From: Yoonia sp.
GTDB lineage: Bacteria > Pseudomonadota > Alphaproteobacteria > Rhodobacterales > Rhodobacteraceae
DNA: 60,046 nucleotides
NCBI GenBank assembly: GCA_023955335.1
Contig: JAGSGF010000015.1
Coordinates: 1-60,046 of the forward strand
Reading direction: 5' to 3'
A model generated the notes under the pieces. It was not told the origin of the DNA. It did not search any database and worked only from the letters and a program-made list of their open reading frames with translations. Every line of letters starts with the position of its first letter. Position 1 is the first letter of the stretch. The position numbers and the translations under genes are program-made. Shown here one piece after another: positions 24,857 through 51,262 of this stretch.

Positions 24857-26009
24857 CGATTGGGAAAACGCCGGCTTTGGCCTGTATATTCACTGGCCGT
24901 TTTGTCAGGCGAAATGCCCGTATTGCGATTTTAACAGCCATGTCGTTGCGCATATTGACCAGATGGCATGGGCCAAAGCTTATGTATCCGAGATCGAGCG
25001 GGTAGGGGCCGAAACCCAAGGCCGGCTCTTGCGATCCGTGTTCTTTGGCGGCGGAACGCCCAGCCTGATGGACCCAGACGTTGTCGACGTGATCCTACGC
25101 AAAGTGCGGGATACATGGACCATCGCCAATGACATCGAAATCACGCTAGAGGCCAATCCAACATCCGTCGAAGCAGGACGCTTTGCGGGCTATCGGCAAG
25201 CTGGCGTGAACCGCGTTTCCATGGGCATTCAGGCGCTAAACGACGTGGACCTAAAAGCGCTCGGTCGTTTGCATTCGGCAAAAGATGCGATGGCAGCGTT
25301 TGATGTAGCGCGCCACGAATTCGATCGGGTCAGCTTTGACCTGATTTACGCGCGGCAAAACCAAACATTGACCGACTGGCAGGCCGAACTGCGGACAGCG
25401 TTGTCGATGGCGATTGATCATCTGTCGCTTTATCAGCTGACCATTGAATCGGGGACCGCGTTCGGGGACCGTTATGCCGCCGGAAAACTAGCGGGCCTGC
25501 CAGACGATGATCGGGCCGCCGATATGTATGAGGCAACGCAAGACATATGCGGGGAGTCTGGTTTTCCAGCGTATGAAGTGTCTAACCACGCAAAACTGGG
25601 TGCGCAAAGCACGCACAACAGAATTTATTGGACCTACGGCGATTATGTTGGAATCGGACCCGGGGCACATGGTCGGGTCACGCTGAATGGACAAAGGTTT
25701 GCAACTGAAACACCATTGGCACCCGGAAAATGGGTGAATGACGTGCGCACGTCACGATCAGGCGAAAGTAGCAAAACCGCGCTGTCCCAAGAGGACCAGT
25801 CGGTTGAGTTTCTGCTGATGGGGTTACGTTTAACGGAAGGCGTGGATCTTGAGCGTCTTGGTGCCAGAAGAGCATATTTTAATAATAATATCAAAGACTT
25901 GGTTGATATGGGCATGCTGTCGTTAGACAAAGACCAACTGCGAACAACCCAGGCAGGACGCCCTGTCTTAAACGCTATTCTACGGCAGCTTTTGACAGGT
26001 TCATCCTAG
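24849..26009 (+). CDS. hemW: HemW-type radical SAM protein (heme chaperone)
   Basis: Formerly annotated as oxygen-independent coproporphyrinogen oxidase, HemW is thought to deliver heme to target proteins. About 386 residues; the 4Fe-4S motif is [10 protein letters not shown] close to the N-terminus, with [10 protein letters not shown] next. The usual extra cysteine of true HemN is absent. The start is uncertain: a TTG at 24849, overlapping the end of rdgB, gives [19 protein letters not shown], which fits relatives best; the nearest ATG (24819) would add 10 residues inside rdgB. Its stop shares CTAG with the parB stop. Confidence 0.85.
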
Positions 26010-26902
26010 CCACCGGACAACGCACGGAGCAAATCGTCGAGCTGATCAAGGTCGCGATAGCTTACGCTCAGACGACCGCCTTCGGTTCCAGATGCATGAT
26101 CGATCGACACCTTCATACCCAAGGCAGCAGAAAGTTCGCCTTCGATTTGGACCGTATCAGCATCCTTGATGGGCGTCGGCCTAGTCGTTTTTGCTGTCTT
26201 AGCCTTTGTCAGACCCTGCTTTGCAAGCTTTTCAGCGTCTCTGACCGACATGCCAGTCTTAACGATATGATCCGCTAATTGTTGAGCATTGTCGTGCCCA
26301 ATAAGCGTGCGGGCATGACCCGCTGTCAATTTGCCGTCAACAAGATACGCTCGTACGCCATCTGGAAGGCTGAGCAACCGAATGACGTTTGCAATATGAC
26401 TACGGCTTTTACCCAATACAGAAGACAGTTGTTCTTGTGTGTGTCCGAATTTTTGCATGAGCTGGCGGTAACCGGCGCCCTCATCAATTGGGTTGAGGTC
26501 TGCACGTTGAATATTCTCGATAATCGCAACTTCGAGGACCTCTGTGTCAGTATATTCGCGGACAATGACAGGAACAGCGTGAATTTGCGCAATCTGGGAC
26601 GCACGCCAGCGACGTTCGCCAGCGACAATCTCGTAAATGCCCGTACGTGTTGGGTGTTCGCGAACGATAAGAGGCTGAATAACGCCTTTTTCTGCGATTG
26701 ATGCAGCAAGTTCTTGCAGGGCAGCGTTGTCAAAAGCGCGGCGCGGCTGATCCGGATTTGGCTGCACCTGCTCGACGGGAACAAAGAAATCGGCACGGCG
26801 TGGTGCTTGGTCAACCTGAGGCGCGATTTCATGCGTGACATCGGACATAAGTGCCGACAGTCCACGACCAAGACCGCGTGTTTTTGTTTTCTTTTCAGTC
26901 AT
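26006..26902 (-). CDS. parB: chromosome partitioning protein ParB
   Basis: CTP-dependent DNA clamp that loads at parS and organises the origin region. The 298-residue protein shows GLGRGLSALM (ParA-stimulating N-terminus), the CTP/parS-loading region GERRWRASQ and ENIQRADLNPIDEG, a helix-turn-helix (HTQEQLSSVLGKSRSHIANVI) and a C-terminal dimerisation segment ending RALSGG. It directly follows parA (TAA then ATG). Two perfect parS sites lie 1.4 and 3.3 kb upstream. Convergent with hemW. Confidence 0.95.
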   Translation of the reverse strand: MTEKKTKTRGLGRGLSALMSDVTHEIAPQVDQAPRRADFFVPVEQVQPNPDQPRRAFDNAALQELAASIAEKGVIQPLIVREHPTRTGIYEIVAGERRWRASQIAQIHAVPVIVREYTDTEVLEVAIIENIQRADLNPIDEGAGYRQLMQKFGHTQEQLSSVLGKSRSHIANVIRLLSLPDGVRAYLVDGKLTAGHARTLIGHDNAQQLADHIVKTGMSVRDAEKLAKQGLTKAKTAKTTRPTPIKDADTVQIEGELSAALGMKVSIDHASGTEGGRLSVSYRDLDQLDDLLRALSGG

Positions 26903-27727
26903 TTAGGCCACCTTATTCTTACGTTTACCATCGTTTAGGATGAGTTCTTGCGCCAAGGCACGATAGGCCGTGCTGCCCTTGGATTGCGAGTCGTATGTCA
27001 AAACAGGCGCCGCAAATGAGGGGGCCTCGCTAAGTCGCACATTGCGCGGAATCATCGTCTGAAACACGAGATCACCAAGATTTTCACGCGCGTCTGCTTC
27101 CACCTGTTGAGACAGATTGTTGCGCTTGTCATACATCGTCAAGACAATGCCTTCGATCCGCAGATTAGCGTTCGCGGTCTCACGAATTTCGCGGATTGTG
27201 AGCATAAGCTGGGACAACCCTTCGAGCGCGAAGAACTCACTTTGAAGCGGTACAATGACGCCATCCGCAGCAACCATTGCGTTAACTGTTAGGATATTGA
27301 GCGAGGGTGGACAGTCGATCAGGATATAGTCAAATGCGAACGCATCCATACCTGTCTGCCGCAGAGCATCGCGGAGGAGAAAACTCCGCTTTTCGTTCGC
27401 CATAAGCTCAATATCAGCCGAACTAAGGTCTGTGGTTGCCGGAACAATCCACAGATTTGCAACGTTTGTTTGCTGAATGGCCTCCGATGGAGCCGCGTCG
27501 CCAGAAATAAGGTCGTAGGTCGTAACTTCGCGGTTATCATAACTGACCCCAAGACCGGTTGACGCATTACCCTGAGGGTCAAGATCGACCAATAGGATCC
27601 GCTTTTCAGTCTCCGCAAGAGCGGCGCCAAGGTTAATTGTCGTAGTTGTCTTGCCGACACCGCCTTTTTGGTTCGCAATTGCGATGATTTTTGGGCTCGG
27701 TCCGCGGCTATAATCAATCACTGGCAA
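26903..27727 (-). CDS. parA: chromosome partitioning ATPase ParA
   Basis: Deviant-Walker ATPase that moves ParB-parS complexes. KGGVGKTTTTINL gives the nucleotide site, LLVDLDPQGNAS Walker A' and DYILIDCPPSL Walker B. About 274 residues. The start is a non-ATG codon: TTG at 27727 overlaps the rsmG end by 14 bases, and GTG at 27721 is an alternative two codons on; both give normal N-termini. Position between rsmG and parB is the common alphaproteobacterial order. Confidence 0.93.
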   Translation of the reverse strand: MPVIDYSRGPSPKIIAIANQKGGVGKTTTTINLGAALAETEKRILLVDLDPQGNASTGLGVSYDNREVTTYDLISGDAAPSEAIQQTNVANLWIVPATTDLSSADIELMANEKRSFLLRDALRQTGMDAFAFDYILIDCPPSLNILTVNAMVAADGVIVPLQSEFFALEGLSQLMLTIREIRETANANLRIEGIVLTMYDKRNNLSQQVEADARENLGDLVFQTMIPRNVRLSEAPSFAAPVLTYDSQSKGSTAYRALAQELILNDGKRKNKVA

Positions 27728-28325
27728 TGTCTTTCAAGATAAGGATACGAGCGTCTGCGTCAGTGATACTGGCATGTGCAGTCATATCAAAGCGCCAATT
27801 CTCGCGTGCTGCCGGTATTTCGTCCGCGAAAGTGCGCCCTTTGGGAAGAATTGCGATACCATCGGCTGCAAGATGCCTATCTAACATAGGCATAAGTTCT
27901 GATACTGACTTCAACGCACGGGCTGTGATAACTCCCGCACGTTGTGCGTCGGTCTCCTCAACACGTTCAGCAAGAACGGTAATTTTTAACCCCAACTCAC
28001 GCGCTGCTGCCCTCAGGAAGGTCGCTTTTCGCTGATCGCTTTCAATAAATGTAAACTCAGTTTGATGACCAAGGCCTACAGACATGACAGCCACGACGAT
28101 ACCCGGGAAGCCGCCGCCACTGCCAATATCGAGCCATCTAGAAACATTTGCAGGCGCGTACTGAAATAGTTGCGCGGAATCTTTGATATGCCGTATCCAA
28201 ACGTCATCTACAGTACTTTTAGCGATCAAATTAATCTTGGGGTTCCACTTGAGAACAATGTCTTCAAACGCACTTAAGCGATCAATTGTTTCACGTGAAA
28301 CATCTATTCCGGAGAGTGTTTTCAA
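27714..28325 (-). CDS. rsmG: 16S rRNA (guanine-527-N7) methyltransferase RsmG
   Basis: Methylates G527 of 16S rRNA; also called GidB. The 203-residue product has the SAM site WLDIGSGGGFPGIVVA and the ITARALKSV region. The start is TTG at 28325, supported by GGAAG eight bases before it in the tail of mnmG. Codons 8-13 (DVSRET) are written by a perfect parS sequence, so this stretch is constrained by ParB binding as well as by the protein. Confidence 0.93.
   Translation of the reverse strand: MKTLSGIDVSRETIDRLSAFEDIVLKWNPKINLIAKSTVDDVWIRHIKDSAQLFQYAPANVSRWLDIGSGGGFPGIVVAVMSVGLGHQTEFTFIESDQRKATFLRAAARELGLKITVLAERVEETDAQRAGVITARALKSVSELMPMLDRHLAADGIAILPKGRTFADEIPAARENWRFDMTAHASITDADARILILKDIASD
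28287..28302. promoter_or_regulatory. parS centromere site 1 (inside rsmG)
   Basis: TGTTTCACGTGAAACA, a perfect 16-bp palindrome identical to the bacterial parS consensus. It encodes VSRET in rsmG. ParB encoded 1.4 kb away should load here. Confidence 0.95.
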
Positions 28326-28328
28326 GAC

Positions 28329-30203
28329 CTAACTTCCTGTTTTCGCTAAATTTTGCCGTTTTAACCACGCCACGATCAACATCAAACCCGCTGGCGTCAT
28401 CCCATCAATACGCCCAGCCTGTGCAACGTCTTTTGGTTGTACACGTTGAAGTTTTTGCGCAAGCTCATTCGACAGACCAATGATTTCTGCATAGTTCATA
28501 TCAAACGGGAGAACATGCTTTTCATCACGCTCTAGCGCTGCGATATCCTTTGCTTGGCGCGCAATATAATTGGCATAAAGCGCATCATTTTTAACCTGTT
28601 GCTGGATGTCAGGCGTTCCTCTTGGAGGGTATCCCGTTAAAGCCTCGATACTGCTAAAATCAAAGTCATTTAAGCTTAAAGCATCGAGCGCAGTTCGCTT
28701 TGGTCCATCTGGTGACAATTTAACACCCAAACCAGCAATTTGGCGCGCTGAAAACGTAAGACCACTCAGTTCAGCGCGGACCGTTTCAATTCCATCTCGC
28801 TTTTCAGAAAAGGAAGACCAGCGGTCTGCTCCGACGCACCCAAATTCACGGCCCCAAGCCGTGAGGCGTTGGTCCGCGTTGTCCGCACGCAAGGACAGTC
28901 GGAATTCAGCGCGTGATGTGAACATACGGTAAGGCTCTGACACGCCGCGTGTCGTCAAATCATCAATCATCACGCCAATGTAGGAATGACGTCGTTCAAA
29001 ATAGATCGGCTCAGCTGCTTTTGCCTGCCGCGCGGCGTTCAATCCTGCCACAAGACCCTGCGCTGCTGCTTCCTCGTAACCAGTGGTTCCGTTGATCTGA
29101 CCAGCGAGAAAAAGGCCTGGCACATCCCGCAACTCTAATGTTGACCTAAGTGCGCGGGGGTCAATGTAATCGTATTCGATCGCATAACCTGGTTGTAGGA
29201 TTTTTGCGCTTTCCAACCCGACGATCGAGTTAACGTAATCCTTTTGCACATCAATAGGCAGTGACGTCGAAATTCCGTTCGGATACACCGTATAATCGTC
29301 CGCACCTTCCGGCTCTAAGAAAATTTGGTGAGACGTCTTGTCGGCGAATCGAACAACCTTGTCCTCAATCGATGGGCAATATCGCGGCCCTACGCCCTCA
29401 ATATGACCGCCGTACATTGCGGACCGGCGTAGGTTTTTCTGAATGATATCATGTGTTTGTTGATTTGTGTGCGTAATGCCACAAGAGATTTGCGTTGCTG
29501 TTGTCTTTTTGGATAAGAATGAAAAAAGCGTCGGCTCGTCATCACCGGGCTGCATCTCCAGGATAGACCAATCAATGGTCCGGCCATCTAACCGCGGCGG
29601 CGTCCCGGTCTTAAGTCGCCCTAGGGGCAAACCAAAGCCATCAAGCCGCTCTGCCATCTTAATTGCTGGCTTTTCGCCCATTCGCCCACCGGGCTGCGCA
29701 ACATCTCCGATATGTATTACGCCGCGCAAAAATGTGCCCGTCGTCAAAATTACCGTCCGCGCTCGAACTTCGGACCCATCTGCAAGCAGAAGACCGACAA
29801 CGCGGTCTCCATCCATCATCAAGTCGACAGCTTCACCGACGATAACGGCAAGATCTTTGGCCAAGTTGATCTCGTTTTGCATTGCTTGACGGTATAACTT
29901 CCGGTCCGCTTGCGCTCGTGGGCCCTGTACGGCAGGGCCTTTTTTGCGGTTAAGCAAACGGAACTGAATGCCAGCCGAATCAGCCACACGTCCCATTGCA
30001 CCGTCAAGCGCGTCAATTTCGCGGACCAAATGCCCTTTTCCCAGCCCACCAATGGCTGGATTACAGGACATAACGCCAATTGTTTCGGTTGATAATGTCA
30101 CCAGCGCGGTTTGCGCGCCCATACGGGACGCGGCCAGAGCGGCCTCCGTTCCGGCATGTCCGCCGCCAATGACCACAACATCAAAATGTTTCACGTGAAA
30201 CAA
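28329..30203 (-). CDS. mnmG: tRNA uridine-5-carboxymethylaminomethyl modification enzyme MnmG
   Basis: FAD enzyme that with MnmE modifies wobble U34 of several tRNAs; also called GidA. About 624 residues with the FAD site [18 protein letters not shown], the [15 protein letters not shown] segment and the C-terminal helical region. The reading frame begins in a parS site. Two starts are possible: TTG at 30203 gives [10 protein letters not shown] with AAGGA almost touching it; GTG at 30194 gives VKHFDVV with AAGGA nine bases upstream, a better spacing. mnmE lies three bases upstream, rsmG follows. Confidence 0.95.
30187..30202. promoter_or_regulatory. parS centromere site 2 (start of mnmG)
   Basis: A second perfect TGTTTCACGTGAAACA, 1.9 kb from the first. 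It spans codons 1-6 of mnmG (FHVKH) and covers one of the possible start codons. ParB occupancy here could affect mnmG initiation. Confidence 0.95.
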
Positions 30204-32898: not shown

Positions 32899-33348
32899 TT
32901 AAAACGGCCGTACAATGACCATCACAACGATTACCAGCATCAGCACCGTCGGCACCTCGTTCACCAGCCTGTAGGTGCGCCCTGTGCGTGTGTTGGTCCC
33001 TTGCGCAAATTCTTTACGTCGTTTGCCAAGCCAAATGTGCGCCACAGTCATCAATACCACCGCAATCAGCTTGACCCACGTCCAACCCGCGCCAAAATCC
33101 ATCGCGCCCATTCCAATCAGGATCAGCCCACAGACCCAAGCCACACCCATTGCCGGTGTCATGATTAAATTCAGCAGTTTCTGTTCCATCACCTGGAACG
33201 TCAGATCAAGCTCTGACCCAACCGTTGCCCGCTCTGCATGATAAACAAAAAGTCGTGGCAAATAGAACACGCCTGCCATCCATGACATCACCGCCACAAC
33301 GTGCAGCGCTTTGACCCATGGATATAGGATTCCTAAAATCTCGGACAT
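32899..33348 (-). CDS. hemJ: protoporphyrinogen oxidase HemJ
   Basis: Membrane enzyme of heme synthesis oxidising protoporphyrinogen IX, used by bacteria without HemG or HemY. The 149-residue product has four hydrophobic segments with the family signature KALHVVAVMSWMAGVFYLPR and FVYH (His16 and a second His near 37, likely heme ligands) and a C-terminal RLVNEVPTVLML. I chose ATG 33348; the open frame continues to 33432 through the AT-rich palindrome and lacks similarity. This is the last leftward gene before the origin-like gap. Confidence 0.88.
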   Translation of the reverse strand: MSEILGILYPWVKALHVVAVMSWMAGVFYLPRLFVYHAERATVGSELDLTFQVMEQKLLNLIMTPAMGVAWVCGLILIGMGAMDFGAGWTWVKLIAVVLMTVAHIWLGKRRKEFAQGTNTRTGRTYRLVNEVPTVLMLVIVVMVIVRPF

Positions 33349-33379
33349 GCTTCGTTTCCCTGATCGATCCTGATCTCTC

Positions 33380-33395
33380 TTAATATATATATTAA
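33380..33395. repeat. 16-bp AT palindrome upstream of hemJ
   Basis: TTAATATATATATTAA is a perfect palindrome made only of A and T, 32 bases upstream of the hemJ start. Three GATC tetramers lie just beside it (33362-33375). It could be a protein-binding site or easily melted DNA linked to the adjoining origin-like region, or hold the hemJ -10 region. Confidence 0.45.
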
Positions 33396-33429
33396 TATAG
33401 AAAGAAGATGATGATGTGTGTTGTGTCGT

Positions 33430-33760
33430 CATTTTCTGTGGATTAAAATCTTATCCGCAGAGTTATCCACCGTTAACCAAAAATAATAAAAACCTAAAGA
33501 GCGGTAAAATTGGCAAAAATAATATTTAATAACAAAAGTTTACAATAAGACACAGGTGCTGATTTTCTAACCCTTGATACATTGACTCTGGCATTGAAGC
33601 AGATTCGTCCACAACCCCGACTTATCCTTGCCCACAGTGGACATTTTGCCGAAACTACGCGCATAACTTATGACATACACACAGGCTGGCGTGACGCGTG
33701 CCTTATCCACCATTTCCACCACACGATCACACAACGTTTGTCCCAAGGGTTATCCCCATG
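33430..33760. other. putative chromosomal replication origin (oriC)
   Basis: A gap of 409 bases between the hemJ and maf starts with no gene. Near-consensus DnaA boxes (TTATCCACA, one mismatch each): 33437-33445 on the minus strand, 33451-33459, 33463-33471, 33703-33711 and 33750-33758; weaker ones at 33605-33613 and 33622-33630. Between the two groups lies an AT-rich tract; 48 of 60 bases at 33481-33540 are A or T, a candidate unwinding element. Two GANTC sites (33584, 33602), the CcrM methylation target in alphaproteobacteria, lie inside. Genes on either side point away, and parAB with two parS sites are within 3-7 kb. The last box overlaps the maf start codon. The call is inference from these features; strand-skew analysis was not possible. 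Confidence 0.75.
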
Positions 33761-34357
33761 CCAGATACCATCATTCTTGCGTCCAGTTCTGAAATTCGTG
33801 CGACGTTGTTGCGCAATGCAGGGGTCCTGTTTGATGTCGTCGTTCCGCGTGTCGACGAGGACACCATAAAGGCGTCACTGATTGCTGAACAGGCGTCACC
33901 CCGTGATATCGCCGATGCATTGGCCGAGATGAAAGCGGTGCGCGTCGCGTCGAAACATCCCGATGCATTGGTGATTGGCTGCGATCAGGTGCTTGCGCAT
34001 AATCGTGCGATTCTGTCAAAACCTGAAAGCCCCGATGACGCGCTTGCGCAGCTTCAGGCACTGCGCGGTGAAACCCATCAACTTTTGTCAGCGGCTGTTA
34101 TTTATGCCGAAGGTAAACCCCAATGGCGTCATGTCGGCCAAACGCGATTGTTTATGCGCGATGTGTCTGATGCTTATTTGGCGGATTACGTTGATCGTAA
34201 TTGGGACAGTATTCGACATTCCGTCGGCAGTTATAAACTCGAAGAAGAAGGTGCTCGTCTTTTTTCGCGCATTGAGGGCGATTACTTTAACGTTCTTGGG
34301 CTGCCACTGTTAGAACTCTTGTCATATCTCACACTTCGCGGAACATTAGACGGATGA
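33758..34357 (+). CDS. maf: Maf-family nucleoside triphosphate pyrophosphatase
   Basis: A 199-residue Maf protein, hydrolysing non-standard or pyrimidine nucleoside triphosphates to monophosphates. The N-terminal ILASSSEIRATLLRNAG, VIGCDQVL and the SVGSYKLEEEG segment define the family. Its ATG lies within the last DnaA-like box of the putative origin, so initiation of replication and the 5' end of this gene are physically linked. First of four overlapping rightward genes; its stop overlaps aroE as ATGA. Confidence 0.88.
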   Translation: MPDTIILASSSEIRATLLRNAGVLFDVVVPRVDEDTIKASLIAEQASPRDIADALAEMKAVRVASKHPDALVIGCDQVLAHNRAILSKPESPDDALAQLQALRGETHQLLSAAVIYAEGKPQWRHVGQTRLFMRDVSDAYLADYVDRNWDSIRHSVGSYKLEEEGARLFSRIEGDYFNVLGLPLLELLSYLTLRGTLDG

Positions 34358-48320: not shown

Positions 48321-51262
48321 GTCAAATCCTCCGGTACAGCGTCGTCGCTGGTGTCCCATTCGCCAAAGCGTGACAGGTGGTCATAATTGCTGTGATCCGC
48401 TGTTGAAAACATTGCTATCCGCGCTGAATAGCCGCGCGATTTTTGCTGATATTCCAACAATAGAGCCTGAAATTCGTCCCATACCTGCATCGCGGGATGG
48501 TCTTTCAGCGGGGCAGGCACATCGCGCATACCGGTATTCACGGCCACGAATGATGCACCTTCGACCACCTTTCGGCCCACGTCAGAGAATGCGCCAAGCT
48601 CGATCATCGCCGCTTCAAGCAAAAGTTGTTTGTCGAACGCGATCTGCTGGTTCTTGCTTGGGACTGCGCCGGTTTTATAGTCGTAAACATAAGCAAGACC
48701 GTCGACGGTCAAATCAATTCGGTCCGCCTTGCAGGTCAGATCAATGCCAGTCGATCCAACAGCGATCTTGCCTTTGCGTTCGAGTTCGTGATGTTGGGCG
48801 AGCGCTTGCCGTCCAATTTCACCAACGATAAACCGGTCTGCAACACGGTCCAACCGCGACAGCCATTGCGCACGGATCGTAGGCCACGGGCAGTCACGGG
48901 CGAAAATCTGTTCAGCGATTTCCATCAGTTTTTCGCGCGCATCCGGCGCAGTTGCGTCAACGCCTTGCGACACGAAGTTTTCCAAAATCTCATGTACGAT
49001 CATGCCGCGCAATGCCGCATCCACGCGGGGCGTCAGCGGATCAAGCCGGTTGAGGCGCAAAACCTTTCGCGCATAAATCGAATATGGATCACGGATCAGG
49101 GTTTTGACCTGCGTAACCGAAATTGATGTGGGCCGCGCCGCAACGGGCGGTTGCGGCGATGGGCGATGTGCGCTGGGGACGGGTGCGCCCGGAATGGAAA
49201 GTGCGGCCGATTGCGCAAGCCATACGTCGCCATCTGCCCGCATCCGCGCCAATGCGGCCGGGCCGTCCTGATCGGGCAGCCCGCCCAATAGATTGACCAA
49301 TCGGTTGACCCACCGCGATGATACTGTTTCGGCGTCAGCAGACCGTTTGGCGCGGCTGATCCATACTTCCTTGGCGGCGACTGCTTGTTGATAATCGTGG
49401 GCGGAAAGCCCGATCCTGCGCTCGGGCAACAACAGCACCGCGTCTCGTCGCATGTTGCGGTTTAGCCAAGGATCAGGGCTCGCGGCCTCTGGCCAAATAC
49501 CTTCGTTCATGCCGCCCAAGATCACGAGATCGGCGCCTTGAACGCGGGCTTCGAGCGTACCCCAAATCAGAATATTTGGATGCGCAGCGTCGCGATCCCG
49601 AACCGTTCCACCTGCTAGAACTGCACCAAACAAGTTGGTATATTCGCGCGGTGTCAGTTCTCCACCAGCATCGGCATGAGTGGTCAGGGTGTCGCAAATG
49701 CGGCGGGCCTCGCGACCGGCGGCTTCTTTCCATAGCGCGCCTGCGCCATCGGCACTTGGGCCGGAACACAGTTGTTCAGTTAAGGTTAAGTGTTGATCAA
49801 GGTGATCGGCCAGATCACGTGGGGTGACGTCATCCAGTCCGGTGATCATGCCGCTGACCCACGCCGCCCAAGCTGCGCGGTCGCCATTCTCATTTTCAGA
49901 TTTCGCGGCCCAGTTGGCCAATGCCTCTGGTGACGGAAATGGCGGACCATAGCGCCGCAAGGACAACTCCAATTCACGGGTGAACCGCAGATGCAAACCA
50001 CGATAGTCGCTGTCTGAATGACAAAGCGGATGCTTAAGAAGGGTGAGCAGGCTCTCGCTCGTTACGGGTTGGCCGAATAGATCAGCAGTGTGCCGCAGCA
50101 TTCGGCCCGGAGGCGAAAGAGCAAGCGGAAGGCCCGCGCTGTCGTCTGGCTTGATGTTCCACCGGTCTAACGCGGCAGTGACTTGGCGGGTCAGCATCCG
50201 GTCGGGTGAAATCAGCGCGGCGGTAATCCCGTCCTGGGCGGCGATACGCAGACGCAAGGCGATGGCTTCTGCCTCTGCGCGCGGTGACGCGGCCTCGATC
50301 AAGGTCATGTTTTGCGTGGCGGCCTTTAGGTCGCCCAAGTCTGGACCATCGCGCAACCATTGGTCGGTCACGGGGGCGGGACGCAATGACAGTGACACCA
50401 ATCTGTTGCGATGCGCATGTGGAGCAGCGGCATCTGGCCAAGCGGGAACGTCCGCGGGGGAAACGTTCACTGCAGTCAAAAAGCGGTGGAACCGATATTG
50501 CGGATGGTCTTCGGAAACGCGGGCATCGGTCATGCTGTCCCAAACGTCAGCGGGCATATCAAAGTCGAAACCGGGGAGGACGACCGCCCCTTGCGGCAAC
50601 TTGGCGACGGCCTGCATCAGCACAGATGTCGCCCCACGAGATCCAGTGGACCCAGCCACAATGATTGGATGTTGGGGTGGTTTTGTTGCCCATTCTTCCG
50701 CAAAGCCAGCCACAACGCGGCGCAATCGCAGGTCTTTGTCTGGCGCGGCGTTTTCGTCAAAATAAGGTGTTACGATCCGTAAGAATTTCAGCGCACGGTC
50801 CCAATGGCCGGACTCGTCGGTAACATCAAGGGTTTGAAACACATCGGGGCTAACGCCTTCGCCGTGCATTTCCTCCATCAATGTCGCTAAGCTATCGGAT
50901 AAATCGTAAAGCGCGGATCGCGGCGCGAGTTTAGCGTCTTGGGTCAACAATGCTGCGACCAGTTGCGACAGTTCCAAGCGGCGGCGCAGCGGCGACACCG
51001 ATGGCAGGCCCGCGTCGATGGCCGGATCGTTGGCAAGATCGGTTATCAGACGCACCCGTGGCAAAAGCCGCGCTGGGCCTGCGTCGAAAACGGACCTGAT
51101 CCGGCGTTGTGTCCGGCTTGTGTTGACGAAAATCTCGACCCTCGCCCAGTCGGTTGGGGCTAATTCGGCCCCTTGTTTTTGCAGACCCGCCACCAATGCG
51201 GTTGCGAAATCTGCGCCGGGCGGCATGCCAAAGATGCGAGGGGTTTTGCTGGTGTCAAACAT
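48317..51262 (-). CDS. addB: AddB nuclease subunit
   Basis: Second subunit of AddAB. The 981-residue protein belongs to the alphaproteobacterial AddB type: N-terminal inactive helicase-like part starting IFGMPPGADFA and a C-terminal RecB-type nuclease with MIVHEILENF, DLTCKADRID and VYDYKTGAVP. I see no C-terminal four-cysteine iron-sulfur arrangement of the Bacillus type. It overlaps the MurU-like gene by eight bases upstream and addA by four downstream. Confidence 0.9.
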   Translation of the reverse strand: MFDTSKTPRIFGMPPGADFATALVAGLQKQGAELAPTDWARVEIFVNTSRTQRRIRSVFDAGPARLLPRVRLITDLANDPAIDAGLPSVSPLRRRLELSQLVAALLTQDAKLAPRSALYDLSDSLATLMEEMHGEGVSPDVFQTLDVTDESGHWDRALKFLRIVTPYFDENAAPDKDLRLRRVVAGFAEEWATKPPQHPIIVAGSTGSRGATSVLMQAVAKLPQGAVVLPGFDFDMPADVWDSMTDARVSEDHPQYRFHRFLTAVNVSPADVPAWPDAAAPHAHRNRLVSLSLRPAPVTDQWLRDGPDLGDLKAATQNMTLIEAASPRAEAEAIALRLRIAAQDGITAALISPDRMLTRQVTAALDRWNIKPDDSAGLPLALSPPGRMLRHTADLFGQPVTSESLLTLLKHPLCHSDSDYRGLHLRFTRELELSLRRYGPPFPSPEALANWAAKSENENGDRAAWAAWVSGMITGLDDVTPRDLADHLDQHLTLTEQLCSGPSADGAGALWKEAAGREARRICDTLTTHADAGGELTPREYTNLFGAVLAGGTVRDRDAAHPNILIWGTLEARVQGADLVILGGMNEGIWPEAASPDPWLNRNMRRDAVLLLPERRIGLSAHDYQQAVAAKEVWISRAKRSADAETVSSRWVNRLVNLLGGLPDQDGPAALARMRADGDVWLAQSAALSIPGAPVPSAHRPSPQPPVAARPTSISVTQVKTLIRDPYSIYARKVLRLNRLDPLTPRVDAALRGMIVHEILENFVSQGVDATAPDAREKLMEIAEQIFARDCPWPTIRAQWLSRLDRVADRFIVGEIGRQALAQHHELERKGKIAVGSTGIDLTCKADRIDLTVDGLAYVYDYKTGAVPSKNQQIAFDKQLLLEAAMIELGAFSDVGRKVVEGASFVAVNTGMRDVPAPLKDHPAMQVWDEFQALLLEYQQKSRGYSARIAMFSTADHSNYDHLSRFGEWDTSDDAVPEDLT

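Follow-up and report, generated by a model that had tools for sequence, protein, structure and literature searches.

We draw on excerpts of three reports as background to this locus. As described there, the Caulobacter crescentus origin Cori occupies 404 bp between hemE and the COG1806 gene and contains several DnaA boxes, raised A/T content and five CtrA sites, and the hemE|COG1806 arrangement is found in Rickettsia too (PMC1914354). Within the Rhodobacteraceae, oriC was predicted with Ori-Finder for 101 members, and eight strains were left unplaced (PMC6699656). On a finer scale, the BUS rule describes a DnaA box, a spacer of at most 16 bp and at least three DnaA-trios (PMC8287927).

Here we analyzed a 60,046-nt stretch of DNA from a Yoonia sp. 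(contig JAGSGF010000015.1 of assembly GCA_023955335.1), referred to below as the window, in which a preliminary description made from the sequence alone had placed a probable replication origin between hemJ and maf. This placement is supported by the DnaA boxes, the related genomes, the parS sites, the GC skew and the lack of a rival box cluster at dnaA or hemE, and the gap between the two genes (Table 1) is very likely the chromosomal oriC of this Loktanella/Yoonia-like member of the Rhodobacteraceae. The gap resembles Cori in its length of ∼400 bp, its several boxes, its raised A/T content and its gene neighborhood, and in one relative (genome G085) the flanks are identical to those of Cori; it differs from Cori, as described in the excerpt, in that it is not bordered by hemE or COG1806, holds no full CtrA site and has a DnaA box (box 5) on the maf ATG (PMC1914354). 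We assign the gap as oriC, and not as an origin of the hemE|COG1806 type, because the other features of such an origin are found in it, although hemE and COG1806 do not border it. The kind of origin is already known and ordinary, with a derived edge at maf; the new details are the DnaA box at the maf ATG, a second unstable tract on the hemJ side and a box separated by one or two turns of the helix from a GATGATG element that is conserved. Our analysis shares with the Ori-Finder work the family and the criteria (boxes, skew minimum, local GC minimum and parAB nearby) and differs from the passages of that report used here, which are without flanking genes, box layout or a base-level footprint (PMC6699656). 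For a marine group whose origins, in the reports consulted, were assigned by prediction (PMC6699656), the locus offers an exact, testable oriC.

Results

DnaA boxes cluster in the gap between hemJ and maf

The gap is free of genes over its 409 bases, and gene direction switches across it, both as described before. An ORF with a TTG start at 33582-33869 was rejected as a gene because it overlaps maf in another frame, and searches for Rfam RNAs and tRNAs found none in the 60-kb window. All five of the DnaA boxes listed in the preliminary description are present in the gap, each with one mismatch to TTATCCACA. The window as a whole contains 18 one-mismatch boxes, and outside the gap no 400-bp stretch has more than one; in base shuffles of the gap (n = 2000) the mean number of boxes was 0.14 and the maximum 2. 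The 3.03-Mb genome has 548 one-mismatch boxes, compared with 386 matches to the reversed word, which gives an expectation of ∼0.08 boxes per 426 bp. Pairs of the form TTATCC-N3-33-TTATCC occur at 4 places in the genome, boxes 2 and 3 among them, against 7 for the reversed control, and since the pair pattern is without genome-wide enrichment, the pairing of these two boxes is by itself weak evidence. The inverted half-box pair recurs in 11 of the 48 related gaps described below, in 10 of these at 128-142 nt from the maf end. No IHF site was found in the gap of the window; such sites occur in 5 of the 48 gaps versus 1.2 in shuffles.

Table 1. Features of the origin region and its surroundings in the window. 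Fractions give conservation among the 43 aligned close sequences.
Feature	Position	Strand	Remarks
parB	26006-26902	-	TIGR00180 over cut-off
parA	26903-27727	-	best NCBIfam match ParA_partition, under cut-off; adjoins parB
parS, perfect	28287-28302	.	
parS, perfect	30187-30202	.	
hemJ, left flank	32899-33348	-	TIGR00701, 163.6 bits, cut-off 138.05
Intergenic gap, proposed oriC	33349-33757	.	409 bases, non-coding
50-mer with the lowest stability in the 60 kb; favored unwinding tract	33366-33415	.	sequence conserved among close relatives
GATGATGATG, end of hemJ-side tract	33407-33416	+	GATG.TG at 33407 in 42/43
DnaA box 1, points into hemJ-side tract	33437-33445	-	TG.GG.T (looser core) 34/43; GTGGAT 6/43
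DnaA box 2, 3 bp ahead of box 3	33451-33459	+	T.ATCC.CA 27/43; exact TTATCC 4/43
DnaA box 3	33463-33471	+	TTATCC 36/43
Central AT-rich tract (33481-33540 plus second least stable 50-mer, 33504-33553)	33481-33553	.	sequence not conserved
TTGAC, conserved, -35-like	33582-33586	+	38/43
GANTC site (GACTC)	33584-33588	.	19/43
GANTC site (GATTC)	33602-33606	.	30/43
Weak DnaA box, 2 mismatches	33605-33613	+	CCACA core 30/43
Half box TTATCC, conserved	33622-33627	+	31/43
Inverted pair of half boxes, 1 mismatch to TCCACNGTGGA	33631-33641	.	GTGGA at 33637 in 30/43
DnaA box 4, lineage-specific	33703-33711	+	kept in 7/43
DnaA box 5, overlaps A of maf ATG	33750-33758	+	TTATCC.CATG 38/43;.T.TCC.CATG 43/43
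maf, right flank, ATG at 33758-33760	33758-34357	+	TIGR00172, 131.3 bits, cut-off 117.15

The box-bearing gap persists while its flanking genes change

We drew a family set of 150 genomes, all of which match Maf, some only by a weak, paralogue-like match. Among the 30 best maf loci (that of the window included), 27 have a divergent HemJ at ∼360-430 bp, within the 1500 bp examined. A further 20 loci, mostly the most distant ones, were taken, 13 of which supplied distant hemJ|maf gaps, and the 48 pooled gaps consist of the 27 nearer and these 13 distant hemJ|maf gaps, 5 gaps bordered by rho and 3 with other flanks. Together they hold 144 boxes with at most one mismatch, compared with 4 for the reversed word, 1 for a permuted word and 5.8 in dinucleotide shuffles. 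At least one box was found in 47 of the 48 gaps and none at one mismatch in the remaining one, and some relatives have few. The pool does not include genomes G016 and G072; in these an apparent hemE, read by eye, stands beside hemJ, with one near-box each. For the closest comparisons, 80 named loci with HemJ were collected, the nearest of them from Loktanella and Yoonia; 76 have both genes, and 42 close gaps plus that of the window make up the 43-sequence alignment of Table 1.

The neighbors of the gap vary. Its border is rho in the nearer relatives G042, G061 and G045 and in the distant G010 and G030, whereas the other flanks are hemE|maf in G079, hemJ|COG1806 in G001 and hemE|COG1806, followed by maf, in G085. 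A border of hemE and/or COG1806 is hence present in G079, G001 and G085 and absent from the window, and a search for PF03618 found no match in the window's genome (∼95% complete). We read the missing border as a derived loss because relatives have it, and hemE and COG1806 are, from these comparisons, the likely ancestral flanks, which would have been lost in steps. The core of the origin would last while its neighbors are replaced one gene at a time. The five rho-bordered genomes have only remote HemJ matches, and another protoporphyrinogen oxidase may be present in them.

The parABS genes and GC skew point to the same region

ParA, ParB and two parS sites were said to lie nearby, and all are present to the left of the gap. 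When up to two mismatches were allowed, these two parS sites were the only ones in the whole genome, and both lie within 5.1 kb of the gap; the reversed control gave 2 and 2 chance matches, and the weight of the finding rests on both real sites being perfect.

The GC-skew check proposed in the preliminary description was borne out in part. The cumulative skew of the window has its minimum at 33784, but this minimum is shallow (−716 versus −694 at 49024), and in the relative G085 the minimum lies away from the locus. Because the window's genome is an 83-contig draft, skew was sampled in four of the eight single-contig relatives (G003, G085, G100 and G116), with twenty 20-kb stretches taken from each. 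Whether or not the mean is corrected for, in G085, G100 and G116 the sampled maximum spans the point opposite the locus, and in G003 it stops ∼15 kb before that point. The sampled minimum adjoins the locus in G100, is within one sample of it in G116 and comes one or two samples before it in G003, depending on mean correction; in G085 it follows the 3.45-Mb sample, the gap being at 2.74 Mb. At closer range, a local skew minimum lies 0.7 kb from the gap in G085, and the local 20-kb minima lie at most 2 kb from the maf match in G116 and G003 but not in G048. In G100, a contiguous 228-kb region has its minimum at a distance of 31.5 kb from maf, in a flat stretch.

In other bacteria, hemE and dnaA are neighbors of the origin. 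Here both are on contig C35 (63296-64303 and 86969-88285, respectively, ∼23 kb apart), which is not the contig of the proposed origin. The 35 kb around the two genes contain 8 boxes, at most one in any 400 bp, with the skew declining steadily throughout and reaching no minimum inside. An origin near dnaA or hemE was rejected, there being no box cluster in these 35 kb of C35. One near DnaA box (G000:C35:88317) lies ∼30 bp upstream of dnaA and is a possible autoregulatory site.

Two unstable tracts and a conserved element lie in the gap

Five boxes were said to flank an AT-rich tract. The A/T content over 33481-33540 is indeed 0.80, but by stability this central tract is only the second least stable of the 60 kb, and the hemJ-side tract, which contains the least stable 50-mer, had been missed. 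The stability energies used in the 50-mer scan are values of general knowledge. In 39 family gaps, two valleys of low stability are seen again, the weakest point being on the hemJ side in 19 and in the center in 20; although the central tract is unconserved in sequence, the arrangement is thus not absent from close relatives, the case named beforehand as one that would speak against an origin.

In 25 of the 48 gaps, both the GATGATG element and a minus-strand box of at most two mismatches are present; their distance is 22-23 nt in 16 gaps and 9-14 nt in 8, and that of the window itself, 26 nt, is the sole such case among the 25. The pattern was picked after alignment, and we treat it as a lead. 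The two spacing modes, about one DNA turn apart, suggest that box 1 has to lie on a particular face of the helix relative to the tract, which a DnaA filament extending into the tract would require. Together with the maf-start box, this spacing could serve as a ruler for finding origins in draft genomes.

The layout resembles the BUS, as described in the excerpt, in that a DnaA box is directed at a tract with the triplet-like GATGATG, and differs from it in that the rule picks no consistent place, the pick in the window being the weak box at 33605 (PMC8287927). Across the 48 gaps, the best match to the rule was on the minus strand in 20 and on the plus strand in 16, with none in 12, and the distance from GATGATG to the box, mostly 22-23 nt, is beyond the 16 bp of the rule. 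No clean BUS assignment emerged, as the rule pointed to no single consistent site across the 48 gaps. The scan score was 1.49 versus 0.40 in shuffles, which are no fair control because shuffling destroys the boxes.

The box at the maf start is a feature of the clade

As had been claimed, the last DnaA-like box covers the start of maf, the A of the ATG being its final base. By the count used here, hemJ|maf gaps have a maf-start box in 24 of the 27 nearer and 3 of the 13 distant cases, rho|maf gaps have one in 3 of 5, and the three gaps with other flanks lack it; some of the misses are gap ends cut short (for example, locus L041). Because the counts fall in the distant gaps, we regard the box as a clade-wide gain and not as a family-wide rule. 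Among the 76 loci with both genes, a plus-strand box lies at most 30 nt from the maf-side end in 58, and the ATG-overlapping pattern is present in 49; the 36 nearest of the gaps listed all end in this pattern. A limited literature search found no earlier description of a DnaA box at a maf start. In the genome, TTATCCMCATG occurs at 2 places, the other being G000:C53:21998-22008 (locus L238), in or near short ORFs without a clear gene start.

The gap holds two GANTC sites and no full CtrA site

The proposal that GANTC sites in the gap fit control by CcrM holds in so far as a CcrM-like RAMA-domain protein is encoded (contig C61) and the site at 33602 is conserved in 30 of 43 sequences; it does not hold for enrichment, the 48 gaps containing 76 GANTC sites versus 85 in shuffles. 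Two of the 66 sites of the window lie in the gap, an unremarkable count. The TTGAC element is 14 nt ahead of a GANTC site and could be the −35 element of a GcrA-type maf promoter. A full CtrA site has the consensus TTAA-N7-TTAA. Control of the window's gap by CtrA is not supported, as it holds no full site of this form; among the 48 gaps, 6 have such sites versus 0.8 in shuffles.

Discussion

DnaA would load on three groups of sites, a left group of boxes 1 to 3, a middle group at 33605-33641 and, on the right, box 5, which would form the outer edge of the origin. The duplex would then open at an unstable tract, for which we favor that on the hemJ side on three grounds: the conservation of its sequence, the GATGATG at its end and the orientation of box 1 toward it from about one or two helical turns away. 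Melting of the central tract, or entry of the helicase there, would follow.

It is quite possible, if not probable, that the gap is oriC but that unwinding starts in the central tract, beside boxes 2 and 3, instead of in the hemJ-side tract. This tract contains the 50-mer that ranks second in instability across the 60 kb, the weakest point is central in 20 of the 39 family gaps, and boxes 2 and 3 stand in tandem with a 3-bp space; yet its sequence is unconserved in close relatives, unlike that of the hemJ-side tract, the other 19 gaps have their weakest point on the hemJ side, and the A-rich strand after boxes 2 and 3 has a polarity opposite to that required by the trio rule. Opening on the hemJ side hence remains the order we prefer. 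A different doubt concerns box 5, which could be no DnaA site at all but a spacer between a Shine-Dalgarno-like run of G and the ATG. Such a run does precede it in the consensus of the close relatives, and the maf-start box is also missing, by the count used, from G079 (hemE|maf) and from 10 of the 13 distant hemJ|maf gaps (at least one of these misses, that at L041, being a gap end cut short). We consider a spacer unlikely all the same, as one fixed 9-mer is not what one would expect of a spacer, yet 38 of 43 sequences keep TTATCC.CATG, TTATCCMCATG has only the 2 genomic occurrences, and where maf starts away from the gap (G085 and G001) it does so without a box.

The remaining alternative touches the origin itself. 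DnaA is also a transcription factor. With this general knowledge in mind, the boxes between two divergent genes, one of them overlapping the maf ATG, together with a TTGAC at 33582 (38/43) that could be a −35 element, might be read as a DnaA-responsive divergent hemJ/maf promoter, with the origin at another place such as the dnaA or hemE region of C35. This is highly improbable, given that the box-bearing gap stays where hemJ or maf does not adjoin it, that the maf starts of G085 and G001, away from the gap, have no box, that the 35 kb at dnaA and hemE contain neither a box cluster nor a skew minimum and that parS is found only near this gap. Because the gap persists under changing flanks, an origin fits better than a control region of hemJ and maf.

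With the gap taken as oriC, an effect of box 5 on maf transcription is possible. The further claim that in this part of the Rhodobacteraceae the origin is fused with the maf operon, its outermost box occupying the space ahead of the maf ATG, so that DnaA loading would also gate maf-aroE-coaE-dnaQ and couple supply and fidelity to initiation cycle by cycle, is rather doubtful. Among the functions encoded there are nucleotide house-cleaning, CoA and, for the replicative polymerase, its proofreading subunit; if the maf-start box were a switch, initiation would be tied to a proofreading gene. Elsewhere in the genome, two perfect DnaA boxes stand 129 bp apart on contig C16 (G000:C16:36313 and 36442; L055 2014 and 2143), upstream of an apparent mraZ and a cell-wall/division cluster as read by eye, and may mark a DnaA-controlled promoter.
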